64,000 nt of DNA from Agarophyton chilense (Eukaryota > Rhodophyta > Florideophyceae > Gracilariales > Gracilariaceae), in contig JARGXX010000132.1 of assembly GCA_030374765.1 (NCBI GenBank), positions 332,501 through 396,500 on the forward strand, in the 5' to 3' direction. This document shows positions 15,482 through 44,511 of this stretch, one piece after another; position 1 is the stretch's first letter, and each line of letters opens with the position of its first letter. A program made the position numbers and the translations under genes. Under the pieces are notes generated by a model that was given only the letters and a program-made list of their open reading frames with translations, did not search any database and was not told the DNA's origin.

Positions 15482-15499
15482 TTCTAAGTCGGGAGACCA
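15482..15499 (-). other. Gyp-A primer-binding site
   Basis: On the minus strand TGGTCTCCCGACTTAGAA starts three bases after the 5' LTR. Its complement ends in CCA. Read as the last 18 nt of a tRNA, it puts a C at position 61, the partner of invariant G53. The same site occurs in Gyp-C (identical) and Gyp-B (two changes). The cognate tRNA is not in this window. Confidence 0.75.
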
Positions 15500-15502
15500 A
15501 AA

Positions 15503-16110: not shown

Positions 16111-16115
16111 GTGTA

Positions 16116-19135: not shown

Positions 19136-19140
19136 TTGGG
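19136..19140. repeat. Target-site duplication TTGGG (left) of Gyp-B
   Basis: TTGGG precedes the TGTAGT start of the left LTR and recurs at 29812-29816 after the ACTACA end of the right LTR. It proves that Gyp-B is a nested insertion into the copia integrase. Confidence 0.92.
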
Positions 19141-19807
19141 TGTAGTATTCTACTATGTCGGGGAATCCGATAGGCTGATTTTTCGCGAAGTCGCAGTTGG
19201 AACTCATAAGTGAGTGATATCATCATACTTGTGATATGAAACGGCACACCACGTAGGATGCCAGGAGGCAGGGTACATTGTTGCAATACGTGGTATCACG
19301 AGTGGAGTGGCTTGCAACGGCGCATGTAGTGGCGATCCCCGTGGCTGGTTTTACTACCCTTTATAGCTAGACGTCCATTAGGGACCGTACCCATACAGTG
19401 GTTTGGCAAAGTGGCTGACCACTGGGTACTATTTATATGTTTATTTGGGCACTCACCCTGGTACACAGTATATAGTGTACCAGAGGTGAGCGCCGACTCC
19501 AAGTCAAGGGGACCACATGGACATCATGACTATTCTTTTCCTCGCTTAGGATTCCTTAACCGGAGATCCGGACAACCTTTAATAGATAGTCAGCCCCCAA
19601 CCACTTCACGAGCCGACTCGTACCTACGTTCCATCAAAAATCTACAGTTGCAATGTTCACCCTCGCTGGCGAGTAGTGGCCTTACACCCCACTTCCAGCT
19701 CGCTGGTATTGTAGCTCTACCACCCCTTTTCCTTCGCTGCAAGCGACCCATCGGCAGTCCGAACGCTGTCGACTGTGTCTGCTCTCTCCGTTAGAACGGA
19801 TACTACA
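19141..19807 (+). repeat. Gyp-B 5' LTR
   Basis: Starts TGTAGTATTCTACTATGTCGG and ends GGATACTACA. Its first 16 bases resemble part of the Gyp-A LTR (GTATGCTACTG), which agrees with a shared lineage. Confidence 0.93.
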
Positions 19808-19809
19808 AG

Positions 19810-19827
19810 TTGTCTTCCGACTTAGAA
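19810..19827 (+). other. Gyp-B primer-binding site
   Basis: TTGTCTTCCGACTTAGAA, two bases after the LTR, is the Gyp-A/Gyp-C site with two substitutions. Confidence 0.7.
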
Positions 19828-20022
19828 CCACTGTGGTCAGCTGCACTGAAGAATTCGTTCCTGGAACGTGGAATCGATATCGATACTTGGAAGAAGTGGA
19901 ATCACTACAGTTATTGTTTATCGAACCACCTCCGGCAATTGCGGAATTCATCGTGGTTGAACACGTGGTAGAGAAGTCGAAGACACCATTTGGTTTGCAC
20001 CTGGACTCAGGTTTGGTCTAGG

Positions 20023-25300: not shown

Positions 25301-26992
25301 GTGCGGACTGTGCCGCTGCAGCGGATAACCGCAGCCGTAATCGCACAGGCGTTTATAAAACACTGGGTATTTATATACGGACCACCAGAAGTTGTGTTAT
25401 CAGATAATGGGAAGCAATTCGTTGCGAAGTTCTTTCAGAATGTTTGCCGCATTATGGGCATTCGAAACGCGTTTACCACGACCTATCATCCGCAGTGCAA
25501 CGGTCAGGTGGAACGTTTCAACTGCACGCTGATAGCAGCATTACGACACTACATCGCAGACCACCCGAAAGAATGGGACATGTTTACAGATACTCTGAGC
25601 TACGCGTACAATACGCAAGTGCATACCTCTACAAAGACGGTACTATTCAACCTGGTGCTCTCACGTAACCCTCCAGCTTTACCGGTTGCGCTCGACGACG
25701 AGACAGAATTGGACGCGCCGACCCCGGCTAAGTACCATCTGAAATAGAGGAATGACCTGCAGGCCAGAGCAGAAGAAGCCGCTAAGGAGTTATCAAAGAC
25801 GAAAGCTCGCTATAAGCGAAACTATGACGCCAGAAGGCGAAGAGGAAATCCGGCAATCCGAGTAGGAGGTCACGTCTTCGTGCGAGTCGAAAGACCGGAC
25901 AAACAGGAAGAATCTCGTCATAAGTTGTTGCCGATAGCGGCTAAACCCTTTAAAGTGGTGGACTTTGATGAAGACACAGTGGTCATCAAGACAGGTGAGG
26001 ACGTTGAACGTGTATCGCACGATCGCGTTGAAGTCGCGCCTGACCCGCAAGTGGAAGTCCAGGTATCTGGTATAACTAAGGAGGCAAGTGCGACGGAACG
26101 TCAAGGCAAAAGCCCAAGTGACTCTGGGGAGAGTGAACCGCCACCAATGGCTCGATCGGAGGAGAAAGCTCCTGATCTCACACCGCCAGCGGTTGCGTAC
26201 GCCAATCACGGACAGCTTCCGAAATATCGGGATATGCCCCGTGTCACGTGCACACCCGTAAGTACAGAAAGGGAACCTGAAAGCAAGAAAGATGTTTTGG
26301 ACTTTGGCCCCAAGGACTTGGAAACGAGTGCAAGCGAAAACGCGCCGTTGCCGCTTCAGGCTGAACCGTCAGGTGAAACGCCACTCGCTGTTCCGCCGAT
26401 ATCGGCTCCCATCCCTCGTGGGCAGGAAGAAGAAGAGGTATCGCGTCCTATCATGGTGCAAGCACCATCGTCCACCGAACAGCGGTCAGAATTGGATAAA
26501 CCGAAGGAAGTTCATCCACGAATGGAATTGAGAAAAAGCAAGAAGTACGCTTCTATGGAACCTGGAAAACAGGATAGCTCTTTATCTGAGAAATGTTCTC
26601 AAGGAATGAGTACACTGCCCCTGCAGGCAGAACGACAGTTAGTCGACGAGCGAACGCTTAGCGACGCTGAGACTGCTAACACAGATACGCTAGGGTCAGC
26701 CCTAAAGCATTTCAAACCTGTTAACAGGAGTCTCGCGCCAACAGCGAAAGCATTGGGAAACGCCCAGGAATATGTTATGGATCGCATATGTGAACATGGC
26801 GAGCATGAAGATACTAGAGAATTACTGTATCGAGTCCGTTGGTACGGTTTTCCTCCGGAAGCGGATACGTGGGAACCTATAGCTCATATCCCCCGTTGGC
26901 AACTCGTGCGATATCATCAACGCATGCGATTACCACTCCCCAGGGAGATCGACACCTCGATAGTCGGGCTCATGGGCACATCCCATTTCTAA
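22396..26992 (+). pseudogene. Gyp-B pol: protease, RT, RNase H, integrase, chromodomain
   Basis: Domains in order: protease with LDTGAGPNF (near 22477), RT with YLDDVIIFS (near 23853), RNase H with SVDTDSS and SEKECLAVVW, integrase with HHCC (C-T-T-C near 25131) and an intact DDE triad (VSIDILGE, LSDNGKQF, GQVERFN), and a chromodomain at the C-terminus (YVMDRICEHG...YRVRWYGFPPEADTWEP, near 26770-26900). Breaks: TGA at 23161, TAG at 23662 inside RT motif A, a frameshift near 24510 in RNase H, a stop near 24608 and TAG at 25745. The chromodomain is fused in frame to the integrase tail, unlike Gyp-C. The frame is -1 relative to the 3' part of gag. Confidence 0.88.
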
Positions 26993-27293
26993 GTATGGGC
27001 TACAAAGGTAGTAAAAACTCGAAAGGCGAGAAGAAAACAAGAAATCAAGAAGAGGAAACGTGAAGACACGCAAGCAAAGGACATTTACTGATTATCACCT
27101 AGGAAAAACTTGAGAAGCGAGAAGAAGAAGTTAAGAACTCGAGAAGCGAGAAGAAGGATTGAAGAACTCGAGAAGCGAGAAGAGATGAAGACTAGAAGAT
27201 AAGAAGGGAACGTGAAGACACGAAGTCACCGGAGTTTTATTGATATCAAGATACCACCGCAAGGGTGTTAACTAGGAGTCTTTTCTTGGATCA
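26993..27293 (+). repeat. Gyp-B purine-rich linker with degenerate repeats
   Basis: At least four imperfect copies of AACTCGAGAAGCGAGAAGAAG lie between pol and the convergent aORF (around 27015, 27105, 27135 and 27162). The purine-rich strand is the pol sense strand. Confidence 0.75.
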
Positions 27294-29120
27294 TCAAAGA
27301 GACGTGCGAGCACGCAGGTTCGCAAGAAGCTGTGCGCGATCACCCTCAACTTGGTCCACGGGAAAGCCCGCGTCTAAGAGGAACTGCCTCAGCGGATCCA
27401 AGCCGGGATCTTCGACCGGCACTGTACTCGGTAGTTGGGTAAACCCATGAGAGTACTCTTGAGAAACTCCCGCCGCTGCGGATTGCTCGACGGAAGTCGC
27501 TACGCCTGCCAGCTCTGGCTCGTCCTCGTAACCGAGTTCAGCCTCAGCTCCCGGCGCTTCCTCATACGGTTCCTCTCCGTTCTCCGATAAAGTAGCATCG
27601 TAAACGTATCCAGTAAGCTGGTTCGGTGGCATGTCACGCGGGTTCTCACGAAGAAAGCGAGTCTGCTCGGAGGTGATCAACTGGCGCGTCCAGGGGTCGT
27701 ACCACACGAAATCTCCAGCACTTGCTGTTCGTCCAGGAGAATGGTCGTGGTGTCTTGCACGGGTTCCGCGAGCGGATTGATCAGCTGGAACTCCAGACCA
27801 ATCGACAATGTAGATCAAATCCACAAGATGGAGGAAGTCGGCATGGTTCGCACGGGATCCCAGGACAAGGGAAAGATCGAGTTCTCTCGCATACTTTGGC
27901 GCTGTGGGCGACATGTACCAAACTCTAAAGGTATCGTAAGCGTCCCCCAGCAGGAAGACGGCCATCTTGGCGATAAACTCGGTATAAAACACCGTCCAAT
28001 ATCCCGAGAACGGGTCGTTAACCAACGCGGACCCGATGTAGGAGATCGCCGGTGGGAGCTCCACAGGGAAACCACGAGGACTCTCGATCGCCGCCCAATG
28101 CTCCGGAATACCGATGTAGCGCCCAAAGCGCGCGTTTCGCCGGATGCGGTCAATCTCTATCATTTGATACGGCACCAAATAGCCGAAACGTGATCGAGTA
28201 TGACGTTCCTAACGGAGATATTCCCAATAGTGAATGTCACGCTTTCGAAGGAAGCAGAACTCCGCACGGAGAAGAGGTTGCTGAAAGCAGAGAGCTGCAT
28301 CACGAACACTGCGTACACCGCGCCAACCGCTAACATCGACTTCAACGAGTGTCTCGATATACGAGTAACCTTCACCGTCGGTACGGGCTTTCCAGATATC
28401 TAGTTCCCAGTCCTGTGGGAGGAGAACCGTACTGATGAATCGGTGAAAACGCTGGTAAATCAGCTTGGTGAACCGCGTACGGGCTTCGGACAAGGTTTCC
28501 GTTGAATATCGCGCAATCGCGTTGTCTGGCAAAGCAATTTGGCTCGCCCAGTCTTCGCTATAAATCGCGTGTTCCGGAATACCGTCAGGTAAGTACCCAC
28601 CGTGTACATACTGTTGTATCAACGTGTCATCGCGGATAGCATCTGGATCAAACCAGGACGCTTGCGCGAAAAGCTCAACGTTGTCGAGAGGATCTCGTCC
28701 GTAGAAATCCGCAGGGTGCGGGTAGCTCCGCTGAGCACGACGAGAAGGAGCTCGAATCACACCCGCAGAGGCGACGTAAGCCGCGTTCGGCATCGGAGCC
28801 ACGGTTGGCTGAGGTAACGGTACCGACCGGAATCCGGTGTACGGTGTAGGGAACGAACGGTACGGACCGAGTTGAGCAGTAGGCTGCGACGCATAACCAG
28901 CAGTGTTGGACGGAGCCCCAGAAGACACATACTCAGAGGAGGGCTGGAACGGGTTGGACCCGGCGTTCGAATCCATCGCGAGAGATCGAGCTGAAGAGCG
29001 GTGACGAACAGAATGCTGTTGAGAACTGTAAGAGTTGGTCGGGCGGCGAGGAATTCGTGATGAAGATAAGTACCCGGAACACCGGTCCGACTGCGTATAA
29101 ACGCTTCTTGCGTCCCCCAT
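27294..29120 (-). pseudogene. Gyp-B antisense ORF (aORF family), one stop
   Basis: 609 codons on the strand opposite to pol, starting MGDARSVYTQ 25 bp inside the 3' LTR and interrupted only by a TAG at 28209-28211; the frame continues unchanged after it. It aligns with the Gyp-C aORF: A-S-W-F-D-P-x-A-I-R-D-D-x-L-I near 28640, R-S-R-F-G-Y-L-V-P-Y near 28180, E-L-P-P-A-I-S-Y-I-G near 28040, F-R-V-W-Y near 27920 and V-L-G-S near 27865. The N-terminus is Ser/Pro/Tyr-rich and the C-terminus acidic and Ala-rich. I see no transmembrane helix, so it is not env-like. No known domain is recognised. Confidence 0.82.
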
Positions 29121-29135
29121 AGTTCGCGCTTAACG

Positions 29136-29145
29136 AGGGGGGTAT
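29136..29145 (+). other. Gyp-B polypurine tract
   Basis: GAGGGGGGTA lies directly before the 3' LTR start TGTAG. Confidence 0.75.
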
Positions 29146-29811
29146 GTAGTATGCTACTTTGTCGGGGAATCCGATAGGCTGATTTTTCGCGAAGTCGCAG
29201 TTGGAACTCATAAGTGAGTGATATCATCAGACTTGTGATATGAAACGGCACAGCGCGTAGGATGCCAGGAGGCAGGGTTCATTGTTGGAATACGTGGTAT
29301 CACGAGTGGAGTGGCTTGCAACGGCGCATGTAGTGGCAATCCACGTGGCTGGTTTTACTACCCTTTATAGCTAGATGTCCATTAAGGACCGTACCCATAC
29401 AGTGGTTTGGTTAAGTGGCTGACCTCTGGGTATTATTTATATGTTTATTTGGGCACTCTCCTTAGTACACAGTATATAGTGTACCAGAGGTGAGCGCCGA
29501 CTCCAAGTCAAGGGGACAACATGGGCATCATGACTATTCTGTTCCTCGATTAGGATTCCTTAACCGGAGATCCGGACGAACTATAATAGATAGTCAGCCC
29601 CCAACCACTTCACGAGCCGACTCGTACCTACGTTCCATCAACGTTTTACAGTTGCACAGTTCACCCTCGCTGGCGAGTAGTGGCCTTACACCCCACTTCT
29701 AGCTCGCTGGTGTTGTAGCTCTACCACCCCTTTTCCTTCGCCGCAAGCGACCCATCGGCAGTCCGAAGGCTGTCGACGGTGTCTGCTCTCTCCGTTAGAG
29801 CGGATACTACA
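29146..29811 (+). repeat. Gyp-B 3' LTR
   Basis: 666 bp from TGTAGTATGCTACTTTG to GGATACTACA, the partner of 19141-19807. It is followed by TTGGG at 29812-29816. Confidence 0.93.
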
Positions 29812-30035
29812 TTGGGTACTGCTACTTTATCCATTGTAACCAAGGCTCATCGTTTACATCTTCTCTATGGAAAAAAATTATGAATAAATGTGTGATCGAA
29901 TGTTCTCTGTCTTGAGTGGAAAGTCATAACTCCATTGGTGCAGAGGAACGATAGCAAGATCCCCTAAGATGATTATACCACAAAAACAAGTTCAATGCCA
30001 ACATTTTAAACTAGAAATTAATCCTCGCCACAGCT

Positions 30036-32040
30036 GTGAAAGCTATGAATGAAACCATGAACCCAGAAGATCTGGTTCCATCCCTCCTAGTCTTCGGTAC
30101 TTTACCAAGACTTCTTGGCCTTCATAAAAAGTTACCTGATCAAAAGAATCGTATGCAAGCACTCTTCACTGCTCGTTCTGAGATGGAATTCATTGCCATT
30201 GTAATAAGACTGAAACGGGCCCTTGAATCACGTCTTCCCGAAGCCGCTCACCACGATTCCGAAGCAGGACCAAATTTTTTGATCTATCGAGAGATCGAGC
30301 TACCTGGATGGACTGAACCGTTTGAAGAAATCAGAGTTACGGGCAAACAGATTTTCATGAAAAAGAAAAATGGCCAGGAAGTACAATATAGTATTACGCA
30401 AACCCAGCCTTATATTTACGAAAATTCGGAAGTCAATTCTGAAATACCGATTCCTCATGGTTTCGAGAATATCTTTACCTACGTGTTAAATGAGGTTCTC
30501 AGACGGGAGTGAAGGAATCATGTGCAACGATGAAGAATCATTATATATTACTGAATCCCTTAAACCAAGTACTTCTCGCTGTAATTCTGCAAAGTTCTCA
30601 GAGGCCAAAAAGAAAGAAGTTGAAGGTTTAAAACGACGAAATACTTGGAAAGTTGTTACACGCAGAGAAGTTCCAAAAGATGCTAATATTATAGGATCTT
30701 GAGTTGTGTCAACAATAAAGAATCAAGGAACAGAGGAAGAAATAAACAAGGCAAAACTTGTGGCCAAAATATTTTCCGATAAGGAACAGAACTACTTAGT
30801 GCATAATGTCACTACCGTTCGCAATATTACATTTCGACTTATTATTACAATCTCTGCAATTTTCAACTAAAAAGTATGACGTCACGTGTTACCCAAGCCT
30901 ACATTCAGAGAAACCCAGATCTAACTCGAAAGATATACAGACGACTTCCCTAGGACATGGATGTACCAAAAGGTTGTCTCCTTCTCCTTATCAAGCCATT
31001 TTATGGTTTAGCAGATGCCTGTGGTTGTTGGAATTTGACGATTATGTCACATCTACGAGAGGACCTTGAAATGAGAGCAATGGAAGGTGACATTTTCTGT
31101 TTTTCAAGAAATATAAAGGTTATCTCTGTGAAATTATTTGATCATATGTAGACGAATCAGTCATTACTGGGGAAGATGAATTCAAGAAGTTCACAAACGG
31201 AACTCTAGAACGTTTCGAGAAACGAGACAGAGTTGTTGGATCTTTCAAATTTGGTAAAACTCAAGTTACGGCCAACCAAGAACAGTACGAAATTCATCAA
31301 AAGAATTTTAAGAATAAAAAGGTGCCAATGTAAAACAATGATGACTATGCAGAGTTTAGATCCAAAAGAGCTCAACTTTGGTGGCTTATGAACACAATTT
31401 CAAACATATCGCTATTCGTGAACTAAACTGCTCTAGTTACAGAGAAAATGTATACGAAATACAATGGACGAAGAAAAAAAAAATCATTAAAGAGATTCAA
31501 GAACAAAAGAATACTTTGAAGTTTGTGAAGCGAGATCCATACTCTCTCTATATCGGAGCATACAGTGATTCTTCATTTGCCAATAATAAAGACAGCACTT
31601 CCCAACTTGGTTTCCTCATTCTACTGGATGGTCCATTCAATCGTTGTAACACTATTCATAACATGAGATACAAGAGCCATCAATTTGTAAGGTATAGATT
31701 ATGAGGTGAAGTTTATGATTTGCAGATGAGTTTGATTTCGCTTAAACGCTTAAGTTTGACATGGAAACTGTACTCGACCAAATGATCCCCGTCGGAATGT
31801 TCACGGATTCCAAGAGCCATTTCGATGTTATCTCAAAAGATTCATCTACAGCTGAAAAACGACTGTTAATCGATATTTTGGCAGCCAGTAAAGCCAATGA
31901 AAAGAATGAATATCTGACATTGAATTCGTGAAATCTGAACACAATCCTGCCAACTTTTTTACCAAGCAAGCAATGATCGAAGCATACAGAACTATTTACG
32001 AAGAGAACCAGTGTGATCACGAAATTGAGCAATGAATGAT
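30036..32040 (+). pseudogene. Cop-1: integrase C-half, RT and RNase H, decayed
   Basis: The second half of the split copia element. 30036-30512 resembles the copia integrase C-terminal region (AVKAMNETMNPEDLVPSLLVFGTLPR). RT follows: FSEAKKKEVEGLKRRNTWKVV near 30595 (matching the E-x-x-x-L-x-x-x-x-W-x-V opening of copia RT) and IKPFYGLADACGCW near 30985 (L-Y-G-L-x-x-A-G motif). RNase H has YIGAYSDSSFANNKDSTSQLGF near 31553. Frames change repeatedly and stops are frequent. No 3' LTR could be delimited. Confidence 0.8.
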
Positions 32041-32309
32041 ACGTCAAAATGCTTGAACAATTGTTTCGCATAAAAGAAAAGTACTAATACTGAGGAAATC
32101 TGTAGAGGACAGTGCGGTGTAAGGTCGAAAATATTTCGCGAAAGGGAGGTAAATAATTGCAACGCGATCTGTTTTGGACAGTTTTGTTGGTTGCACTGCA
32201 ATTCGTGTTGAAAACCACATTAGTGAATGTTATCGTTAAATAGACACGAAAGAAGACCTTAAGTCATTTGATTTTGTAACCTAATCTGGGAGACGTAGCA
32301 GTAGAATGA

Positions 32310-32490
32310 CGCTTCTTACTTGGCGCGGTAGATACCCGCACCAAGCTCCCAGCCGCAATAATAGAGCTCGGACAAGAGAACTCCTTCTCGTGTCCGACAA
32401 CTAACGAAAAACAACCTCCAATTTTACCTTCCACATCTTCAGCCTGCATCATTATCTTCGTCTTCACCGTTCCTCAACCATCAATAATCA
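32310..32490. repeat. Dispersed repeat, copy 2 (partner at 836-1010)
   Basis: Aligns with 836-1010, including gtccgacaact and agcctgcatcattat. Its minus-strand frame (32264-32467) keeps the peptide T-K-I-M-M-Q-A also found in copy 1. Confidence 0.6.
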
Positions 32491-32505
32491 AATATATCAG
32501 CCATT

Positions 32506-32548
<43 letters not shown>
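32506..32548. repeat. (ATC)n microsatellite
   Basis: About 14 uninterrupted ATC units, followed by the 95-bp repeat shared with 4095-4195. Confidence 0.95.
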
Positions 32549-32621
32549 ACAATGATTCAACTACCGTTTCAATTATAAATCGATTTATCAACTTTTTGTT
32601 TACACTGTCAACTATCAACTT

Positions 32622-32763
32622 TGTATAACAGTGGAGAGTGTTGTATGCTCTCGTGAAGCGCGCGGGGGAACCGGGGAAGACAGAGCGGGCAAAGGGTCTC
32701 CCTCGCTTGTCCCCTCCGTCCCCAGTGTCTCGGGGTAGAGCAAGGGAGATAGTTAGTATCCAG
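32622..32763. repeat. Dispersed repeat R, copy 1 (split by Gyp-C)
   Basis: Aligns with 48330-48475: aagcgcgcgg, aaccgggga, gagcgggca, agggtctccctc and gtccccagtgt are shared. The alignment resumes on the far side of Gyp-C at 44512 (tactggctgcattgtgc...ggtgg), so Gyp-C inserted inside a pre-existing copy of R. The last five bases (TCCAG, 32759-32763) are the target duplication. Confidence 0.75.
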
Positions 32764-33677
32764 TGTGGAGCAAAACCCGGCGACGGGAAGTGCTCTCAAG
32801 GTGTTCGAAGCCTTGCTCCCTGGGGGAGGCAGACTCAGAGACAGAGCCCTTCGTTCCACCCGTAGTGTGGGGTGTAACTCCCACGGGGTATTCCGGCAGT
32901 ACCGACGGAGGTGAGGGGTAGAAACCTTTGGATCGGGAATGGGTATGGGTATCCCAAAGAATGGGGGAAAATCCGGCGAAGAGGAAAAACGGGGCGAGGG
33001 TCGGGCACTAACAGGCACCGGACCCGAGAACCAGAAAAGGGGCGAAACAACAAAAGAAACCCAATACAGGGGCGAAAACCTGTCCTCGAAAGGAAACACA
33101 AAAAGCACGCAACAAGTAAGCAGAACCCCCACAGGGTATCGTGCACGCAGGTCGTCTGAGCGGTCCCAAGGGGGTGGTTGCACGGAACCCAAACGTGGGC
33201 ACTCTCCAAGTGGAGTCGTGTCCCTACGCAGGCGTTGCTAACCAGAGCTCGTTCCGGGTTGTAAGGCCGAAACGATGGCGACGAAGAACCTCTAAAGGTA
33301 TCGAAGACCAACCTTGGTTGTCATTTACTCTGAGCTCGGACTGTCAGATCTCGCCTCCCTAAGTAGGGCCCACTAACTAAACTCTACAGTAGTGCACACC
33401 TGCTCAGGGCCATACACGTGGAGATCCCACTGCCAGGGCCCAAAAATCCAACGTTCTAACAAATATCCGAAAATCGGTGCCAAAATTAAGCCACGTGTAT
33501 CACGGGGCCAATCCAACCATGGGCCATCCGAATTTTCCCTTATAGGCGAAATATAACCAGAAAACAGTGCCACCTCAGCACACTATAGAGGGGATCATAA
33601 TCATAACCCTCGGAGGGTTCAATCCTCATTCTATGAGTTGCATCTTCAAGTATCCCCTGACTGGGCGTTGCTCTACA
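32764..33677 (-). repeat. Gyp-C 3' LTR
   Basis: Reads TGTGGAGCAAAACCC...GCTCTACA on the plus strand; the partner is 43593-44506. Open frames inside it (for example 32911-33159) recur identically in the other LTR and are not genes. Confidence 0.95.
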
Positions 33678-33690
33678 TCTCCCCCTCCTT
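33678..33690 (-). other. Gyp-C polypurine tract
   Basis: On the minus strand AAGGAGGGGGAGA directly precedes the LTR start TGTAGAGC. Confidence 0.8.
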
Positions 33691-33756
33691 AAGACGAGGA
33701 AGAACATTCCGAGCCGCGGGTGTCTAACTTTCCGATCACTATACATACTTCTCCCA

Positions 33757-35613
33757 ATGGGGTCCTTCACCACTTCTGAGGCTCGCCACAAAACCGGCAC
33801 ATCGGTACAACTTTCTTCTACTCCTCCGACTTTCGGCGATACGCAACTTCTCGCAGCAGCTGTTTCGACTAGCACTCTCAAGGGAATGAACCCATACGTC
33901 ATCAACCCACTCTCGGGGCCATCGGCCTCCGCGCCGGCGGACAACGAAGCTCCCCAGCAGGGTGGATATTTCTCCGGTTTGGATGCGGCTCCGTCAGGTA
34001 CCGAACCTTCCGCCTAAGCGGGCAACCGACATCCTCAGGAGGATTTGGACATCACCGCGGTGGCGTGGAACTCTGCTCTTGCGATGCCTTTGGTAGCAAA
34101 CTCCAGAGGTTGGATCTCAAACGAATCCTTTCGAAGGTGGAGTCCCCTTACCGATCCGGTGATATATTCCCGCGCTCCGTGGTTCCATTCAACAGCGGTT
34201 CGGGACGATGAGCTCATCGACTCCTACGTGGAGGACGGCTTATTGCCGGGTGGCCTACCTGTCGAGGTTGTACGTTCTCCCAATTGGAGGGCGCGGGTAG
34301 CCATAGAGCCTCAGTATCTATACCGCAGTCGCGGGGAGTCCCTGGACAAGGCACGCGCAGCGATGGCGGCTCTGGCCTACCAGCGATTGGAGAGGTCACG
34401 CTTTGACCATCTGGTTCCCCCGGGGTACGGGTTCGATGTCGCCTATTACCGCACGTACGGTGAGGTCTCCTACGGGGATAACCTGGCAGCCTTTACCGAA
34501 GCCGAGTTCCGCGGACCGGGTTTTCCTCTCCGAGAAGATATGCTCCAATGGAGTCGTCCCATCCTTCGGGCTGTATTCAGGTACCTTCAGCGGCAGTTTA
34601 CCCAGTATGGGTTCGATCGACGCGTGCGCTTCGAGCGCCGCTCGCGCTCCCGTTTCGGGTTCCTTGTCCCGTATCCTCAAGTGGAACTGGAGCGTATCCG
34701 TAACACGGCGAAGCTTGGGCGATTCGTGCCCCTTCCAGCTTTGTGGAGTAAGGTCGAAGTCCCCCGAGGGTGCTTTGCTGAACTGCCCCCATGTATCTAC
34801 TATATCGGGTCTCGTTTGATGCACGACCCGAACTCGGGATACTGGGCCCTCGTTGCAGCCGAGTGGGCAGCCCGCGTAGCGGCGCACCTCCTCTGGGATG
34901 CTCATGACCATTTCCGTATCTGGTATATTCCTCCGATGCTACGGACCATCATGCGTCAGATCGACCTTGTCCCAGTGTTGGGTTCTGCCAGCAACGTGCA
35001 GGACCTGTATCCAATCTTGGACGTGATCGACAACACCCAATGGGATCGAGTTCCAGTGGTAAATCAGCCCGCAGGGGAAGGATCCGCGCGAGACAAGTCT
35101 CCTGGCCGGTATGATCCGGGCTCCGGTAACTGGGTCTATTACAATCTCTTCGAAGGGGTTCGCATCAGCGCGGCGCAAGCACGGGCGCTGATTGACTGGC
35201 CTCGACCGATGCCGGTTGGACACCCGACGGGGTTCATTTATACCGACGATTACGAGTACGAGCCTCCAGTAGACCTGGACGATCCAGCGTTGGATAACGA
35301 AGTGCCAGCTCCTAGTGGAGTACTCCCTGTGGAGCCATCTGCACCCTTCCAACCAGTGGGAACGACCTCAGCTGCGGCGGCGAATGCATCCGGTGGCGGT
35401 CCATCTGCTCCCCCCGGGTGGGGTGTGAACACCCTTGCGCAGGCGCCGGTTGCCACTCCGCAAGCCGATAGTGTGCGACAAAACCTCGTGAACGCAGGCA
35501 TTCCGATTCCCCCGGGTATGACGGATGTGAGCCAGATGTTGGCTTTCGCCTCGGCGTACCATCAGGGTCAGAATCCCAACGGTGGGGCGGGTCCCTCCTC
35601 GGGCTTTCCGTAG
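33757..35613 (+). CDS. Gyp-C antisense ORF (aORF family), open except for one early stop
   Basis: The frame starts MGSFTTSEAR, 79 bp inside the 3' LTR on the strand opposite to pol. A TAA at 34015-34017 follows codon 86; after it the frame is open for more than 520 codons (next ATG at 34084). Landmarks shared with the Gyp-B copy: A-P-W-F-x3-A-V-R-D-D-E-L-I, R-S-R-F-G-F-L-V-P-Y, L-G-R-F-V, E-L-P-P-C-I-Y-Y-I-G (34780-34812), G-Y-W-A-L, F-R-I-W-Y-I-P-P and V-P-V-L-G-S. It is rich in Arg, Trp and Tyr centrally, with an acidic then Pro/Gly-rich tail. No signal peptide, membrane helix, zinc finger or other known domain is visible. The product is unknown; conservation in three elements argues it is a real accessory gene. 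Confidence 0.78.
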
Positions 35614-36012
35614 TTCCGCCTTCGGGCAATTGTGGAGTCCAAAGCTTGGCGACAATAGTAAACTTCTGATATTTGCATAACTTCCTTTCTTCTTCCTTCC
35701 TAGGATCTTAACTTCTACTTCTCTTCTTCTTCCTTCTTAGGATCTTCTTCATCTTCTTCTTCATCTTCTTCCCTTCCTAGGGTCCAATCTTCTTCTGAAT
35801 CTTCTTCTCCACTTCGTGGGTCTTCTTTTCCTTTTTCATTATAAACTGTCCCGATAACCGGTGTTGTGTTCCCCGATTAACGGCGCTAGGCCGAAAGCCA
35901 GTAGACATTCCCTCTCAATACGTGTTCTTCGGGATACTCTCCTCAATTCCTCTTCAGAGGTCCAACATCTTCCTCACTTCGAGGTCGCATCCACACCAGT
36001 TCCCGTGGTGGT
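35614..36012 (-). repeat. Gyp-C purine-rich linker
   Basis: On the plus strand 35685-35850 is almost pure C/T with repeated TTCCTAGGATCTT-like units and CTTCTT runs; the purine-rich strand is the pol sense strand. It separates the convergent aORF and chromodomain frame, as in Gyp-B. Confidence 0.75.
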
Positions 36013-36303
36013 TTACCCGACTTGGGCACGATCCAGATTTGGAGGCAAGGTTACCCGAGCGCTTCGGTAATAGGATAAAACCTTAGACCTCGGAAGGTGC
36101 TCAATGGGTTCCACTGTATCCTCCTCAGGCGAGAATCCGTACCATCGGACTTGGTAGCGAACTTCTCCCTCGGGGGTGTAGATGTGACGCACGATGCGAT
36201 CGATAACGAATTCCTGCGGGTACACTTTTCCCTGTTCGGGCTTCTCTTCCATCTTGGAACGCTCTAGTTCCCTTGAGGGTGTCAAGGTAGGGTCTAGACA
36301 CAC
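36013..36303 (-). CDS. Gyp-C chromodomain frame
   Basis: A short frame (open upstream to about 36376) encodes a clear chromodomain: FVIDRIVRHIYTPEGEVRY, then QVRWYGFSPEEDTVEP and the closing helix LPRSKVLSYYRS. Trp in the usual D-T-W-E-P is Val here. In Gyp-A and Gyp-B the same domain is fused in frame to the integrase tail; here it lies in a different frame, 500 bp downstream of the pol stop. Expression would need splicing, frameshifting or reinitiation, or the fusion has been lost by an insertion. Confidence 0.75.
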   Translation of the reverse strand: MCLDPTLTPSRELERSKMEEKPEQGKVYPQEFVIDRIVRHIYTPEGEVRYQVRWYGFSPEEDTVEPIEHLPRSKVLSYYRSARVTLPPNLDRAQVG

Positions 36304-36802
36304 CCCGGTGGGTTCTTTTCCGTGTTGCGAGCGGGTCTCAGCACTTCGTCCAAACGGCGCCGAGTGGCCTTTGGGCTACGTTGTAACTTCCGTCTACGGA
36401 GTCAAAACGGCCCATTTTTGGGTTCTTCTTAAAGCTGAGATCTTCCCGATAACAACGGTGTTCTTAGGTTCCGTGACGGTTGAGAAACCGCGACGCGGTA
36501 GCGTCTCCAGTCTCAGGGGGGTAAATCTTCAACGTCAACCCGAGCTACGGGGACGAAGGTTGCTCTTGTGCAACGCGCCGTGCGACGGAGGCAGTTTGCG
36601 CGACGGTTGGTCGTCAGAGCCTTTTGACTGGCTCGGTGCCATTCGACGTGGGCCACATAAATGCGCGGGCGCCGGTTGCCACTCCGCAAGCGGATATGAG
36701 GTGGCGCTTTAGGCACGCGCTAGCACTCTCCTAAGCTGTCCCCGACGGGTCTCACTCATTTCTTTCCCATTCCTGTGGGTTCCAGTGTCTCCATAGGAGT
36801 TC
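36304..36802. other. Non-coding gap between Gyp-C pol and chromodomain
   Basis: About 500 bp with stops in the pol frame directly after TAG at 36803. No homologous segment exists in Gyp-B, where pol and chromodomain are contiguous. It may be an intron-like or inserted stretch; I could not identify convincing splice sites. Confidence 0.4.
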
Positions 36803-39800
36803 CTATTCCCATTCCATAACGGAGAGCCAAATTTGGTCAACTTCGTCGTCGAGATCTTCCCCGTGCGGGTCCGCTGACACAGCTCGTTCCCGAGACAGCG
36901 GGGTTTGAGTGTGCGACACCTCAGTGTCTCTTCCGCGGCGGCGGGTGATCTTCGGCTCTATAGGCGTTCCGGGTGCGGAGTTCTCCACACGACTCTCCCT
37001 AGGCGGGTTTTCGTCATCTTTTCTGACGTCGTGCTCGGCTGGGTCGGCGGTGATGTCGCTACCCATACGCTGGGGTTGTGACTTCTCTGTTGCCGGCTCG
37101 GTCGGGCTCGCCGTCTCACTGTGAGAACTAGATTCCTTGTTAGGGCGACTGGCTGACGCCGAAACATCGTCCTGCGAAGGAACTAAGTCCTCCTCCCCCT
37201 CCTTAGGCGGAGAGCCAGGAGGCTTGACTACCTCCGGTGGGGGAGTAACTCTGTAAGAGTTCGTTGGCTGGGCCCTTGAGGGAGCGGGCCCAGGTTCGGG
37301 AGTATCCGAAGTTTCCGGTAGGTCGGTTAAACCACGTTCCGGGTGCGGAAGTATAACGGGGCGGGTGTTCGAATCTCCGCCTGACGGGTTAACTTCCGTT
37401 GAATCATCCCCTGTGGAGGGCGTTGGTGCCGACACCACTTCCACATTTGGGTTGGGCGCTCGTGTGATGCAGTCCCTGGAGATCCGTTCGTGGCGGTTAG
37501 CGATATCCAATACCACCGTGTCCGGGTCTACAGAAACCACCCGATAGGGTCCGTCCACAATTGGCGAAAGCTTGTGCCTACGTTCCTTTTCAGGATTGTA
37601 GTATTCCTTTCGAAGGAAGACGAAGTCGTCAGGCTCCACCTGAGGTAGAGGTTTACGAACCCGATTGTCAAAGTCCTTCTTGTAGGCGCGTTGAGCTTTG
37701 TCCATTGCTTTCCGGGCTATCGGCACCATCTTCGTAAGCCACTCCTTCCAGGCTTCTCGGTACAATCCCGGTGACGGGTACGTCGACAGCGTCGGTTGAG
37801 CCTCGATGGCGACCGGCGGCGGTGTCCTCGACAGTACCAATTCGAATGGGGATAAAGATGTAACCCGATGTACCTGGGTGTTGTATGCATACGTGATAGC
37901 GTATGTGTACAAGTCCCAATTTTTGGGGTGATCCGCAACATACGATCTCAAAGCGTTGAGTATCGTGCGGTTAAACCTCTCCACCTGGCCATTCCCCTGA
38001 GGGTGATACGTAGTAACAAATAAATTCCTTACATCAAGGATTCGACATACATCCTGAAAGAACTTTGATGCGAATTGCCCTCCGTTGTCGGATAACAACT
38101 GCACCGGCGGTCCATATACGAACACCCAATGGGTCACGAACGCTTGCGCGACGGTAGCGGCGGTGATCCGCTTCAGCGGCACAGTTCTCGTTAGCTTAGA
38201 GAATCTGTCAGAAATGACAAGCAGATACCGATGACCTCGGGGCGTTCTGATAAACTCCCCTAGGATGTCTATGGCCACGAATTCGAGTGGAGCCCGTGCC
38301 GGGAACAGCGTCAACTTCTTAGAGTGCTTCCGAAGTTTGACGTCATTCTTGGCGCAATTGGCGCAGGCCCTTCTAACGGCGTAACAATCGAATGCCATTG
38401 CCGGCCAGTAAAAGTCCCTTCTCAACGTGAGGTACAGTTTTCTTCCCCCGGGGTGGGCGCCAACCTTCAAATAGTGAGTGAGGTGTAATTCCCTCTGTTG
38501 TAGGGTGTGCGGCACCACTATCCTCGGGCGAGGTCCAACGGTCCTGATTAGGTAACCCTGATCGTCGTCCTCGAAAGGTAACTGAAATCCTCCGTTGAGG
38601 CGAGCCCGAATCCGTGTACAGAATGGGTCGAGCTGTTGCTCGCGTATCATCTCCTCTGGAGAGATAGGTATAAAAGAGCCGGTCGGCGAATCCAGACTCT
38701 CGTTGACGAGTATATCGTCACAAACATCATCCGTCAGCTGTTGAGCTCCTCCCTCGAGGTCCGATACCATAAAGCATGGGATGTCATCGTCCTCGTAGGG
38801 TTCCGTTTCCGCTGTGGTTCCCAAGCAGGATAGTGCATCAGCCTGAGTGTTCAGCTTCCCTTTCTTGTACAGGATCTCAAAGTCGAATTCCGACAGTCGG
38901 AGACGCCAGCGCATAAGGCGGCCCGAGGGTTCGGAGATCTCCAGGAGCCAACGCAAGCATGCGTGGTCCGTATGGACTTTGAAACGAGTACCCATCAGAT
39001 AGGGGCGAAGTGTAGCTAAGGCCCACACAACGGCTAAACATTCTTTCTCGGAGACCGAGTAGTTCCTTTCATGGACATTCAGGGAACGTGACCAGTACCC
39101 AATAGGGTGACGTTCACCATCCTCAGAGGATTGAAACAGTGCACATCCTACTTGGTTTGCACTAGCATCGGTGTCCACTTCGTAAGGGAGCCCAGGATTG
39201 GGTAGAGCCAAGATTGGCGGTGATGTTACGGCATTCACCAGTGCCGTGAAGGCAGACGCTTCCGCGTCGCCAAAAGGTTCCAGTTCAACTGGTTGTCCCT
39301 TCGTCAGGAGCCTGTTGAGGGGGGTGGCAATATCCGCAAAGTTCGGGACGAATCGGCGATACACGTTACACAGACCTAAGAAGGATCGCAACTCCTTTTG
39401 AGTTTTCGAGTGTTTTTCTTCCTTCAAGGATTTAACTCGTACTTCATCGATTGAAAGCTGTCCGGGACGGATGATATGACCCAGATACTTAACCGAATCG
39501 GTGAAAAACTCGCACTTCTTGAGTTTCAAGGTGATTCCCGCGTCGCGGAGTATCTTCATTACGTCCCTGACGTGTTCGAGGTGGTCATCCAGGTTGTTGG
39601 AGAAGACAATAATGTCGTCTAAATACACTAGACCCGTCCTCCACTTGAAGGGAGCCAACAGAATGTCTATCGCCCGTTGAAACGTTGCGGGGGCATTTGG
39701 CAACCCAAAAGGCATCCTCCGGAATCGGAAAAGTCCTTGATGACACACGAACGCCGTTTTGTCTCGATCTTCCTCCCTAATAGGGACTTGCCAGTAGCCC

Positions 39801-41428
39801 GAATTGGCGTCGAGGGTAGAGAAAACAGTAGCGCTCCCAAGGGAGTCGATGTATTCGTCCATCCGAGGGATCGGGTACACATCCTTAATGGTTACCTCGT
39901 TCAGGCGTCTGTAATCGATGCAGAAACGCCACGATCCATCCGGTTTCGGAACTAACACCACTGGTGAGGCCCAAGCGGACTGGGCAGGTTCAATTACGCC
40001 CGCTTTAAGCATCTTCTCCACCTGAGATTTCTCCTCTTCCCGAGCTTTCGATCCAGCCCTGTAAGGGTGTTGGGCAATAGGCCGAGTGTTCGGTAACAAG
40101 TCGATGCGGTGTTCTGTAATCCCAATAGTTCCAAGGGAACCATCCCACATGGGGGTAAATTCACGAAGCATGTGCCTCAGCTTCTCCCGATGAGATGCGG
40201 GTACATGGTTGAGATCCCATTTTTCCAATTCCTGAACAGGATCCGTCTGGTCTGCTCCTGTGATAGGGGCCGTAACCTTCTGAGGTTTAAATTGTTCAGC
40301 GTGTGGAGCTGCAGTCGTATGCTCACCGTCTTCCGCGATTTCGGCAGTGTCCTCCCCCTCCTTAGGGTCCGCCACACCAAGGACCTCTGCGATAGAGATC
40401 TTTGTAGGTACGACCGCATGCGGGTGTGGAAGAACAGAACCCAGGATCTGGTGTTTGACCAAATGCTGCGTTGTCTTTCCAAAGTTGGCTACCAAAACCT
40501 TGAAAGGTTTATCCGGTTCCACGGAGACAACCCCATTCGCAAGGGCGAGTTGACGCCGCGTATACAGAGACGGGTTCGGTTGTACCACATGCACACCAAT
40601 TTGCTTGGTAACAACTGTGACCCAAACCTGGGTTTCTGGCGGGATAGCCACTGACTTCGCAACCTTTACCCGTGTAGACACCGGGTCCTTCTTCACAGAT
40701 TCCTGCGCGACAGGGAGAGGAACGCGTGTTCGCGCTGCTCCCTGTAAGGTTTTACGAACGATTGGGATCGTAGACCCGTCTTCGAGTTCCACAGTTCTAT
40801 TCCGAGGACGGATGGCTTCCACGAAGCGGTCGCAAAAGTAACAACCCAGTATGACTGGTGCTGCAAGTGACTTGCATACAATAAACTCCAGTTGAACGAG
40901 ATAGGAGCCTAACCTCACCATGAGGGAAATTGTACCCAGTGTCCGTAGCGGGTTGTTGTTCGCATCGGCGATATCCAAACGTGGACCGGTACGAACTTGG
41001 ACCCGGAGCGGCGGGGGTAACAATTCAACATGAATTAAGTTAGGAGCGGCTCCTGTATCCAGGACAGATATTTGACGAACCATAAACTGGTTGGACATGC
41101 CGAAGTCGGCGAATACCTTATAATTCCGCTTGGCCATTACCATAACTCGATCCGGAATACGGAGATTACGGGACCGTATCCACGGGCGACGGAGGATACT
41201 AAAGTATCCCGAGTTAACGTCGGTGTCAGCCGTTTTCCTTGAAAGGATTGTCACAGCTGGGGAGCGAAGCTGGAGCGCCTCGGGCGTCTTAAACTCCGGC
41301 TTAGACGCCCCTCCCGCAGGGGAGACTCCCAAGTTTAGTTTTTCGAAGCGGACCCCACCGAACTCGGTGCAGCTGCCTCGAAGGGGACCGGTTGTTCCCC
41401 GTTCGCGGGTACAAGTTCTGTATCCCTG
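36803..41428 (-). CDS. Gyp-C pol: protease, RT, RNase H, integrase
   Basis: The frame is open from 41428, lies -1 relative to gag, has no ATG near its start and ends at TAG 36803. Counting from the TTG at 41332: protease D92-T-G-A; RT with LDANSGYWQ (motif A) and YLDD at 570-573; RNase H with TDAS (Asp722), the EKECLAVVW Glu and HTDH (Asp789); integrase HHCC at H953, H960, C990, C993 and DDE at D1022, D1082, E1118 (the last two 36 apart). A long Pro/Ser/Glu-rich linker forms the C-terminus. Every catalytic residue I can check is present, so this polyprotein could be functional. Confidence 0.93.
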   Translation of the reverse strand, partial: QGYRTCTRERGTTGPLRGSCTEFGGVRFEKLNLGVSPAGGASKPEFKTPEALQLRSPAVTILSRKTADTDVNSGYFSILRRPWIRSRNLRIPDRVMVMAKRNYKVFADFGMSNQFMVRQISVLDTGAAPNLIHVELLPPPLRVQVRTGPRLDIADANNNPLRTLGTISLMVRLGSYLVQLEFIVCKSLAAPVILGCYFCDRFVEAIRPRNRTVELEDGSTIPIVRKTLQGAARTRVPLPVAQESVKKDPVSTRVKVAKSVAIPPETQVWVTVVTKQIGVHVVQPNPSLYTRRQLALANGVVSVEPDKPFKVLVANFGKTTQHLVKHQILGSVLPHPHAVVPTKISIAEVLGVADPKEGEDTAEIAEDGEHTTAAPHAEQFKPQKVTAPITGADQTDPVQELEKWDLNHVPASHREKLRHMLREFTPMWDGSLGTIGITEHRIDLLPNTRPIAQHPYRAGSKAREEEKSQVEKMLKAGVIEPAQSAWASPVVLVPKPDGSWRFCIDYRRLNEVTIKDVYPIPRMDEYIDSLGSATVFSTLDANSGYWQVPIREEDRDKTAFVCHQGLFRFRRMPFGLPNAPATFQRAIDILLAPFKWRTGLVYLDDIIVFSNNLDDHLEHVRDVMKILRDAGITLKLKKCEFFTDSVKYLGHIIRPGQLSIDEVRVKSLKEEKHSKTQKELRSFLGLCNVYRRFVPNFADIATPLNRLLTKGQPVELEPFGDAEASAFTALVNAVTSPPILALPNPGLPYEVDTDASANQVGCALFQSSEDGERHPIGYWSRSLNVHERNYSVSEKECLAVVWALATLRPYLMGTRFKVHTDHACLRWLLEISEPSGRLMRWRLRLSEFDFEILYKKGKLNTQADALSCLGTTAETEPYEDDDIPCFMVSDLEGGAQQLTDDVCDDILVNESLDSPTGSFIPISPEEMIREQQLDPFCTRIRARLNGGFQLPFEDDDQGYLIRTVGPRPRIVVPHTLQQRELHLTHYLKVGAHPGGRKLYLTLRRDFYWPAMAFDCYAVRRACANCAKNDVKLRKHSKKLTLFPARAPLEFVAIDILGEFIRTPRGHRYLLVISDRFSKLTRTVPLKRITAATVAQAFVTHWVFVYGPPVQLLSDNGGQFASKFFQDVCRILDVRNLFVTTYHPQGNGQVERFNRTILNALRSYVADHPKNWDLYTYAITYAYNTQVHRVTSLSPFELVLSRTPPPVAIEAQPTLSTYPSPGLYREAWKEWLTKMVPIARKAMDKAQRAYKKDFDNRVRKPLPQVEPDDFVFLRKEYYNPEKERRHKLSPIVDGPYRVVSVDPDTVVLDIANRHERISRDCITRAPNPNVEVVSAPTPSTGDDSTEVNPSGGDSNTRPVILPHPERGLTDLPETSDTPEPGPAPSRAQPTNSYRVTPPPEVVKPPGSPPKEGEEDLVPSQDDVSASASRPNKESSSHSETASPTEPATEKSQPQRMGSDITADPAEHDVRKDDENPPRESRVENSAPGTPIEPKITRRRGRDTEVSHTQTPLSRERAVSADPHGEDLDDEVDQIWLSVMEWE

Positions 41429-41481: not shown

Positions 41482-43365
41482 TCAAGCTTTCTCCTCAGGG
41501 GTCAGAGCCTCGTACTGAGCGATAATTCGTGAACCCTCCCGCAGGGGAAATGTGCAGTCTGGTGCTTTGTGACCACGGAGGTAACACAAATAGTAAATCA
41601 GCTCTGCCGGATTCGGTTGTGGACGTGAATCCACGCGACGTGGTGCTGTATCCCTCCATCCGGGGCGAGAGAACCGAGCAGCGGTATTCGCAAAAGGTAG
41701 CGATGCGGCTGGCACCCTCCGTCCGTGGGTATAGAGCGCAGGGTCTTCATCCGTAGTCGGAGCGGATGTCGACGGCAACTCAGACGTACCCATAGATTCG
41801 GGGTTACTTCCCATGAATTGAATGTTATCATTGACCCCCACAGGGGCAGGGCCTCCTGCGAGTGACAAAGACGAGTTACCTCCATCGGCGAAAAGTGCAC
41901 GTGTCGGCCGACTCTTTCGGTTCTGCCGGGCACGGAGAGTATCCCCCTCAGCCTGGGCGTACTGAACCAGTTCCAAGTAGGCCAGCTTGCGCTTCTCTTC
42001 CCGATGTCGGGCAACCAATGCCCTTATCGAGGGGTCCAAACCATCCACAAACATGGTGCATCTCTCGTAGGCGGGGAATACATTCCCGCATCGGTGAAAC
42101 GCTTTATTCAAGCGAGTTGAATACACCGTTTCGGTTTCCATCGGCTTCTGCCGCGTATCCCTTAATGCAAGGATTGCTTCCTGAATCGCATTTCCAGTAG
42201 CGTATGACCTCAAGAGGTACTGCACCGCTTCGGGCCAGCACGTGACTCCCCCTTCCGAGGCTCGGGATGATCCACGGACGGAGTTGAACTGGTCTTCAGC
42301 CATCCCCTTTAAGAAATAGGGTAATGCAAGATACGCTTGCGCTTCACTCATACCGAGGATGTCAGCCTCCTGGACGAACCTCGCAAGGAAATCGAGCACC
42401 AGAATTGGGTCTGTTCCTGTGAACTCCCTCTTCTGTAGGGTGATGCTCAGCCTTTTGATGTAGTCCTTGACCTTACCCGTTCCGCAGGATGTTCGATCTC
42501 CCGAAGGCTTATCCAACCGGTAATAGCGGTACGATAGCAGCTTCCGATAGAGAGGATTCGTCGGCTTCAGCTCCCTTAATCCAAGGTGTTTCCTACCCTT
42601 CTTCCGGGTACGGCTTGCCCCTTGAGAGGTGTAAGTAGCCTTCGACCGAGTCGCCCGGGATGACCGGCGTCCATCTTCACTATCCGAAGATTCGGAGGAC
42701 GAACTCGATGACGAGCGATTGGGATCGGAATCCGATAAATCCTCTTGGAGGTAAACCCTCTTCTTGGACTTGCGGCGGTCCCGTTTAGCGGAGCGGTGTT
42801 CTTCGTCTTCCGAAACGTCGGGTTTATCCTTCGAGGCTTCTGCGTTTCCGTCCATACGGATAATGGCCTCGAGGGTGTCCAGCTGAGCTCGGAAGCGTTC
42901 CGCTTGCACGCGGTGTTCCTCCACGAGGCTCCGGTAATCCTGGATAAAGACCCCAGGGGTACCAAAGCTTTCCAAAAAAGAGTTCACATCCCTCCTCAGG
43001 GTACGAAGGTCATCGGCGACTCCCCGCACCGGGGCGTCCTCCATCTTGAGGCGGAGGGTAGTAACCTCCTGAAGGAGCTCGATGTGAGCCGCGTTGGTGA
43101 TATCAATTCGAGTCTCCAGGCGCTGTAATTCAGGGTCGGCCCGACTTCGGGGTGCTGCTGAGGGGGTCCCCACCACTGGAGCTGGGCCCACAGCCACGAC
43201 CTCTCGAGGACCTGAAACCACTGAGGGTGCTCTCCGAGTGTCCGGATCGATACCGGAATCGTTCCGACCTTCGGGAATAGAGCTCCTCGACCTAGGCGGG
43301 GCCGGGGGCACTGAATCCGCTTGACGGTTCGATCCAGTCCTGGAACCACGGGTAGGCCGCGACAT
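41482..43365 (-). CDS. Gyp-C gag
   Basis: 627 codons from a true ATG. N-terminal Arg/Pro/Ser-rich part; predicted coiled coil (L-E-T-R-I-D-I-T...L-L-Q-E-V-T-T-L-R-L); an acidic poly-Ser block; then a capsid-like domain (KVKDYIKRLSITL, MSEAQAYLALPYFLKG, CGNVF, MFVDGLDPSIRALVARHREE). The nucleocapsid knuckle is incomplete: Y591-x2-C594-x4-H599-x4-C604, with Tyr (TAC) where Gyp-A and Gyp-B have the first Cys. The terminal TGA aligns with an Arg codon (CGC) in Gyp-B, and the frame stays open 48 codons beyond it to a TAA at 41335, overlapping pol. Confidence 0.9.
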   Translation of the reverse strand: MSRPTRGSRTGSNRQADSVPPAPPRSRSSIPEGRNDSGIDPDTRRAPSVVSGPREVVAVGPAPVVGTPSAAPRSRADPELQRLETRIDITNAAHIELLQEVTTLRLKMEDAPVRGVADDLRTLRRDVNSFLESFGTPGVFIQDYRSLVEEHRVQAERFRAQLDTLEAIIRMDGNAEASKDKPDVSEDEEHRSAKRDRRKSKKRVYLQEDLSDSDPNRSSSSSSSESSDSEDGRRSSRATRSKATYTSQGASRTRKKGRKHLGLRELKPTNPLYRKLLSYRYYRLDKPSGDRTSCGTGKVKDYIKRLSITLQKREFTGTDPILVLDFLARFVQEADILGMSEAQAYLALPYFLKGMAEDQFNSVRGSSRASEGGVTCWPEAVQYLLRSYATGNAIQEAILALRDTRQKPMETETVYSTRLNKAFHRCGNVFPAYERCTMFVDGLDPSIRALVARHREEKRKLAYLELVQYAQAEGDTLRARQNRKSRPTRALFADGGNSSLSLAGGPAPVGVNDNIQFMGSNPESMGTSELPSTSAPTTDEDPALYTHGRRVPAASLPFANTAARFSRPGWRDTAPRRVDSRPQPNPAELIYYLCYLRGHKAPDCTFPLREGSRIIAQYEALTPEEKA

Positions 43366-43572
43366 GCTGCAGACACGACACCGACGATTCGGGGTAACGA
43401 TGAAATTCGATCACGAGATTCCCGGAGAACGGATGACGTAACACAAAACAAAAATAAAAACCAATTCCACCCTTTCCAAAGGAAACCACTACAACAAATC
43501 TTCACGACGGTGCTTCCTCTTCCAAGAGATATTCCAACACGTGGATAACCAACCCAAAAGTCCGAGAACGGA

Positions 43573-43590
43573 TTCTAAGTCGGGAGACCA
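43573..43590 (-). other. Gyp-C primer-binding site
   Basis: On the minus strand TGGTCTCCCGACTTAGAA lies two bases inside the 5' LTR and is identical to Gyp-A. Confidence 0.78.
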
Positions 43591-43592
43591 CT

Positions 43593-44506
43593 TGTGGAGC
43601 AAAACCCGGCGACGGGAAGTGCTCTCAAGGTGTTCGAAGCCTTGCTCCCTGGGGGAGGCAGACTCAGAGACAGAGCCCTCCGTTCCACCCGTAGTGTGGG
43701 GTGTGACTCCCACGGGGTATTCCGGCAGTACCGACGGAGGTGAGGGGTAGAAACCGTTGGATCGGGAATGGGTATGGGTATCCCAAAGAATGGGGGAAAA
43801 TCCGGCGAAGAGGAAAAACGGGGCGAGGGTCGGGCACTAACAGGCACCGGACCCGAGAACCAGAAAAGGGGCGAAACAACAAAAGAAACCCAATACAGGG
43901 GCGAAAACCTGTCCTCGAAAGGAAACACAAAAAGCACGCAACAAGTAAGCAGAACCCCCACAGGGTATCGTGCACGCAGGTCGTCTGAGCGGTCCCAAGG
44001 GGGTGGTTGCACGGAACCCAAACGTGGGCACTCTCCAAGTGGAGTCGTGTCCCTACGCAGGCGTTGCTAACCAGAGCCCGTTCCGGGTTGTAAGGCCGAA
44101 ACGATGGCGACGAAGAACCTCTAAACGTATCGAAGACCAACCTTGGTTCCCATTTACTCTGAGCTCGGACTGTCAGATCTCGCCTCCCTAAGTAGGGCCC
44201 ACTAACTAAACTCTACAGTAGTGCACACCTGCTCAGGGCCATACACGTGGAGATCCCACTGCCAGGGCCCAAAAGTCCAACGTTCTACAAATATCCGAAA
44301 ATCGGTGCCAAAATTAAGCCACGTGTATCACGGGGCCAATCCAACCATGGGCCATCCGAATGTTTCCCTTATAGGCGAAATATAACCAGAAAACAGTGCC
44401 ACCTCAGCACACCTTAGAGGGGATCATAATCATAACCCTCGGAGGGTTCAATCCTCATTCTATGAGTTGCATCTTCAAGTATCCCCTGACTGGGCGTTGC
44501 TCTACA
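43593..44506 (-). repeat. Gyp-C 5' LTR
   Basis: 914 bp, near-identical to 32764-33677; would drive gag-pol leftward. Followed by TCCAG at 44507-44511. Confidence 0.95.
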
Positions 44507-44511
44507 TCCAG

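Follow-up and report, generated by a model that had tools for sequence, protein, structure and literature searches.

Some long terminal repeat (LTR) retrotransposons carry, beyond gag and pol, a gene that lies between pol and the 3′ LTR and is read in the opposite direction. PMC7264820 describes such genes in Grande (gene23), RIRE2, Retand (TRP28) and PvRetro13 in plants and in Boty in a fungus; it gives GENE23 of Grande as nuclear and transcribed antisense, and the role of these genes as unknown. Retand is placed in a non-chromovirus lineage (PMC11963269), and brtn of Boty (BcGypsy1), from Botrytis cinerea, is an extra antisense gene in a Gypsy element (PMC7264820, PMC8365987). Retroviral antisense genes, HBZ among them, have their promoter in the 3′ LTR (PMC7264820, PMC11963269), and additional frames are reported from most lineages, in plants, fungi and animals (PMC12786077). 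As for red algae, Gypsy elements have been reported in Gracilariopsis lemaneiformis, the available text of that report naming no extra genes (PMC5970526), and among the literature matches listed there was no red-algal case of an antisense element gene. Here we describe a 64,000-nucleotide stretch of the red alga Agarophyton chilense (contig JARGXX010000132.1, positions 332,501 to 396,500; hereafter, the window) containing three elements, A, B and C, each with a long antisense open reading frame (aORF) in this slot. From the sequence we judge, with a probability of about 0.78, that the aORF is a real accessory gene coding for protein, under selection and common to three chromodomain Ty3/Gypsy families.

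The gag-pol strand is minus in A and C and plus in B, and the aORF is opposite to it in each element: ~6275-8609 (+) in A, 27294-29120 (-) with its ATG at 29120 in B, and 33757-35613 (+) with its ATG at 33757 in C. A sequence-only reading of the window had proposed that in all three elements a long frame runs opposite to gag-pol in the interval from the chromodomain to the 3′ LTR, and both the frames and open copies elsewhere in the genome confirm it. Its coordinates were right for B and C; in A the equivalent of the first Met lies at 6275, upstream of the start at 6510 that it gave. All three window copies are broken, by an in-frame TAA at 34015-34017 in C, by a TAG at 28209-28211 in B, and by a frame change and several stops in A. 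Copies elsewhere in the genome are open for 618 codons in C, 608 in B and 772 in A.

A search of the genome (79.8 Mb) returned at least 81 copies of the C aORF (the best 81 of 1788 first-look candidates), at least 129 of B (the best 129 of 1366) and at least 150 of A (the best 150 of 562). The matched stretch was free of stops in 43 of the 81 C copies, and the full 618 codons were open from the same ATG in 14 of 30 excised C loci. Six A copies were picked from the 150 scored for long stop-free frames; 772 codons were open in three of them and 740-752 in the other three. Coding DNA can carry long open frames on its other strand, and the aORF could in principle be a mirror of a coding sequence or a product of chance. 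We consider this very improbable, however, because the frames fall outside pol and the chromodomain and so are not mirror ORFs of pol, as the sequence-only reading had also held, and the gag-pol strand there has 9-39 stops per frame in three open copies. The homology between B and C, described below, also contradicts such an origin, as does a control with 2000 first-order Markov sequences per family, in which the longest open frame over all six frames did not exceed 408 (C), 375 (B) and 344 (A) codons.

The aORF proteins of the three elements are homologous. B and C, which had been said to align along most of their length, indeed do so (BLASTP E 3e-83, 37% identity over 477 columns), and a translated comparison of the two elements gave gag, pol and aORF in identical order. 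The A protein aligned with a profile of C, B and the relatives P0003 and P0004 with an hhalign probability of 96.4 (E 1.4e-9, 318 columns), and with single sequences at BLASTP E 1e-5 (C) and 4e-4 (B); as a negative control, the B/C aORF profile against the element's own gag gave a probability of 0.1. The alignment of A with B and C is strongest at a W-E-[VS]-P ... P-P-x3-Y-[IF]-G-S block. The membership of A in the family, which had been suggested from short motifs, is thus upheld. One of these motifs, GFRSVP, is present in window A and in B; open A copies have GFRSMP, and the relatives have looser forms. The absence of a homologue at the same place in other elements had been named in advance as evidence against the gene, and on this point the result was in the gene's favour. 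The family was probably inherited from a common ancestor of the three chromodomain Ty3/Gypsy families.

Named protein relatives were confined to two species, Gracilariopsis chorda and Agarophyton chilense, both Gracilariaceae. P0004, a C-type relative from Gracilariopsis chorda, matches the C aORF piece at 42% identity over 90%, and P0005, from Agarophyton chilense, matches the A-type aORF at 75% over 39%. A further, C-like protein, P0003, matches the C piece at 49% over 99%. A deeper profile search for further relatives returned P0003 solely. When the A. chilense genome was searched with P0004, the best 77 of 1823 candidates were 41-44% identical to it, and none of these 77 belonged to a family closer to P0004. 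For five pieces taken from the A, B and C aORFs, no Pfam family matched at E up to 1, TRP28 (PF04195), which defines the Retand gene, included; within these limits, the view that the aORF is not of the plant type stands. The aORF also differs from the plant genes in that it resides in chromodomain elements and in a red-algal host. The earlier suggestion that an aORF in chromodomain elements may be undescribed is tentative, given brtn, the additional antisense gene of a fungal Gypsy element; the likeness of the aORF to brtn is one of description. The aORF thus appears to be a new protein family in an already-known slot, in chromodomain elements of a red-algal host lineage. An unrelated family in red-algal chromodomain elements, present in three divergent families and many copies with open members, would suggest that the arrangement has arisen by convergence.

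The aORF is under purifying selection, clearly in C and more weakly in B. A ratio of nonsynonymous to synonymous rates (dN/dS) near 1 had been set beforehand as the result that would speak against a gene; the within-family values (Nei-Gojobori, over all pairs) were 0.43 for C (30 copies), 0.66 for B (30 copies) and 0.55 for A (6 copies). On the same 11 C copies the aORF gave 0.46 and reverse transcriptase (RT) 0.32, and in shifted-frame controls the aORFs gave 0.82-1.14 and RT 0.98 and 1.07. Variability at codon positions 1, 2 and 3 was 0.019, 0.020 and 0.035 in C and 0.068, 0.054 and 0.074 in B, the third position being the highest in both.

We also split substitutions into those shared by at least three copies, taken as made during family activity, and singletons, with those in exactly two copies excluded. 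For the shared changes, the ratio of nonsynonymous (N) to synonymous (S) substitutions, relative to expectation, was 0.34 in C (p 0.0003), from 25 S and 20 N with no stops, and 0.60 in B (p 0.011), from 38 S and 60 N with one stop. Among singletons it was 0.71 in C (18 stops; p 0.0007) and 0.96 in B (44 stops; p 0.29). Shared changes were, thus, more constrained than singletons in both families (Fisher p 0.024 in C and 0.036 in B). Coding constraint, homology between families, position and copy number are the level to which the aORF is demonstrated.

Two further explanations can be weighed. In the first, the antisense transcript itself would be functional, pairing with gag-pol RNA or acting as a brake on copy number, and the open frame would be incidental. 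Non-coding antisense transcripts are indeed described for other elements (PMC7264820, PMC12786077), but amino-acid constraint and protein homology across families and species speak against a role of the transcript alone, and we regard it as improbable; RNA and protein roles could, however, coexist. In the second, the aORF would be a host gene picked up by the elements, or what is left of a nested element, and would have no part in the element cycle. A single capture in the common ancestor is compatible with the data; against idle carriage, the frame has kept the same place and orientation in three divergent families and is under selection. No single-copy host relative was seen among the best 77-150 copies scored per query, a depth at which a host gene could be missed. 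This origin is, in our view, about as improbable as the preceding one, and we prefer to regard the aORF as a selected accessory gene of the elements.

The position of the start codon suggests how this gene would be expressed. The first aORF ATG lies 24 nucleotides (nt) away from the inner 3′ LTR border in B (29145-29811, +) and 79 nt from that in C (32764-33677, -), and the leader includes the purine tract that adjoins the LTR (29131-29144, +, in B; 33678-33693, -, in C), whose role as polypurine tract we take from its position. Translation from the first ATG would, thus, need messenger RNA (mRNA) starting within or right beside the LTR, which makes both LTRs candidate sites of an antisense promoter. 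Such a promoter and an antisense mRNA are, judging by these distances, probable. The leaders of B and C suggest the same layout as that of HBZ; the class of element differs, and the likeness proposed is one of layout. P0003 starts with Met-Asn-Pro, matching an internal Met of the window families (MNP at Met 44 in C, L005 codon 44; MDP at Met 49 in B, L058 codon 49). The second Met may, therefore, be the true start in C and B, which would lengthen the leader and weaken the argument for an LTR promoter.

The protein itself has a conserved, partly helical core flanked by low-complexity ends. Pro/Ser/Gly/Ala make up 25-59% of the end blocks (46-52% of the first 100 residues) in B, C, P0003 and P0004, and these four proteins also have a short basic stretch of ERR-x-RSR type. 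The A protein is less regular, with 33% Pro/Ser/Gly/Ala at the start and 48% at the end, and lacks the basic stretch. A structure model of the core, of moderate quality, is mostly helical in its best part. Searches of PHROGs and of PDB sequences gave no match to the aORF. We considered whether the protein might be structural or envelope-like, joining the particle or aiding passage from cell to cell. The slot between pol and the 3′ LTR is the env position, and A has a single strongly hydrophobic stretch (maximum 19-residue hydropathy 2.04). The aORF, however, is opposite to gag-pol and does not show the features of a third gene of that kind, the same orientation and a transmembrane segment; maximum hydropathy is below 1.4 in C (0.93), B (1.24), P0003 (1.33) and P0004 (1.26), and neither a relative on viral contigs nor a fold match for the core model was found. 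A structural or envelope-like protein is thus unlikely, though less so than the explanations above.

Several observations weigh against a selected, LTR-driven accessory gene. The gene is known here from DNA sequence alone. The copies used for dN/dS were chosen by likeness of the aORF protein, which lowers dN. Three other frames of B gave shared-change ratios of 0.69-0.80, compared with 0.60 for the aORF, so that the test in B is weak taken alone, and one antisense frame of C, whose third positions coincide with those of the aORF, gave 0.37 against 0.34, although that frame contains stops. In B, only 3 of 30 excised loci were open from the ATG (604, 608 and 608 codons). Pfam revealed no classical nucleic-acid-binding domain in the aORF pieces. 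In A the aORF starts 861 nt from the 3′ LTR (4806-5413, -), so the LTR-promoter model is a poor fit for this family, whose aORF mRNA might come from an internal promoter or include a leader exon. The likeness to the HBZ layout was judged by the leader lengths in B and C together with TATA-like motifs, and the latter were limited to the antisense strand of the B LTR; the A and C LTRs have no TATA[AT]A motif. The B motif (TATAAATA) occurs in 25 of 30 copies, but we did not accept it as proof that such a promoter exists: the surrounding LTR is ~97% conserved, and the motif is conserved no better than its surroundings.

If the aORF is a selected accessory gene, it may work as follows. The aORF and gag-pol are arranged tail-to-tail, and in B and C the antisense mRNA most likely begins within the 3′ LTR, at a promoter there. 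Purifying selection has probably kept the gene while the families spread, and its protein would act in trans as an element-specific regulator that binds either element nucleic acid or a silencing or transcription factor of the host, with the outcome that gag-pol expression is maintained or tuned. A trans-acting regulator seems to us the likeliest role because of the analogy with GENE23 of Grande, which is nuclear, and with the antisense genes of retroviruses, and we propose a regulatory rather than a structural role tentatively, at a little under even odds. Counter-silencing specifically is more doubtful. The anti-silencing (VANC) proteins of VANDAL elements, which are Arabidopsis DNA transposons, would be an analogue if the aORF counters silencing; they belong to a different element class, and the likeness would be one of function. 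An equally tentative history would have a chromovirus ancestor in the Gracilariaceae gain, once, a protein family with an unmatched core, which would be expressed antisense from the 3′ LTR and would protect or regulate the elements. In that case, accessory genes read antisense in this slot would have had independent origins in plants, fungi and red algae, which would point to a common need unmet by gag-pol alone. The recent and intact copies would provide a system in which the role of antisense genes can be tested.

The three elements were detected by self-comparison of the window. Each is bounded by TG...CA ends and a 5-base target duplication, and the LTR pairs are identical at 579/608 (A), 630/667 (B) and 903/913 (C) positions. 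The 5′ LTRs lie at 15503-16110 (-) in A, 19141-19807 (+) in B and 43593-44506 (-) in C, and the target duplications are GTGTA (4801-4805 and 16111-16115), TTGGG (19136-19140 and 29812-29816) and TCCAG (32759-32763 and 44507-44511), respectively. In A, too, a purine tract adjoins the 3′ LTR (5414-5431, -), a polypurine tract as judged by position. A primer-binding-like sequence is nearly identical in the three elements: TGGTCTCCCGACTTAGA in A (15483-15502, -) and C (43574-43592, -) and TTGTCTTCCGACTTAGA in B (19808-19828, +). The window contains no tRNA gene.

The pol frame of C (36803-41428, -; 1541 codons) has Pfam matches to RVT_1, RNase H and integrase; the frame in the gag position (41482-43410, -) was assigned by position and has no Pfam gag match. 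A chromodomain at the C end of pol, the mark of chromoviruses, was found by Pfam (PF00385) in B (26768-26923, +; E 1.6e-7), in frame 25748-26992 after the integrase frame, and in C (36061-36213, -; E 5.3e-8). In A a chromodomain-like motif interrupted by a stop was read by eye (8875-9021, -), the half preceding the stop giving no Pfam match. The C chromodomain lies in a separate frame (36016-36375, -) from that of pol. A doubt about the chromovirus label, raised by the C pol frame lacking the domain, was dropped once the domain was found in this other frame. Of the 150 RT matches scored, 12 have a pol frame of 1540-1542 codons, which makes the pol stop a feature of the family in C; the chromodomain might be attached through frameshifting or splicing, or might be in decay.

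Between the end of pol or the chromodomain and the aORF stop, each element has a spacer that is purine-rich (GAAGAA type) on the gag-pol strand, with a purine fraction of 0.67 in C (35614-36015), 0.69 in B (26993-27293) and 0.60 in A (8610-8950). In B and C this spacer holds the 150-nt window with the highest purine fraction (0.75 and 0.81, respectively); the maximum in the A spacer (0.69) is equalled by a stretch near 14502. It is conceivable that the spacer acts as a terminator or an internal primer site. Elsewhere in the genome, an A-type copy at G000:C113:553176-553859, 54% identical to window A and with 10 stops, is a trace of an older A-like family.

Beyond the elements, Pfam identified four apparent host genes: a Vps54-like gene (48462-50753, +), a gene with a PA domain and a RING finger (51759-53612, -), a lipoxygenase gene (55830-58040, +) and a protein kinase gene (59337-60917, -). 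A 120-base tandem duplication, with copies 83-85% alike, lies outside the elements at 3502-3745, and a 92-base repeat is common to 4100-4191 and 32532-32623.

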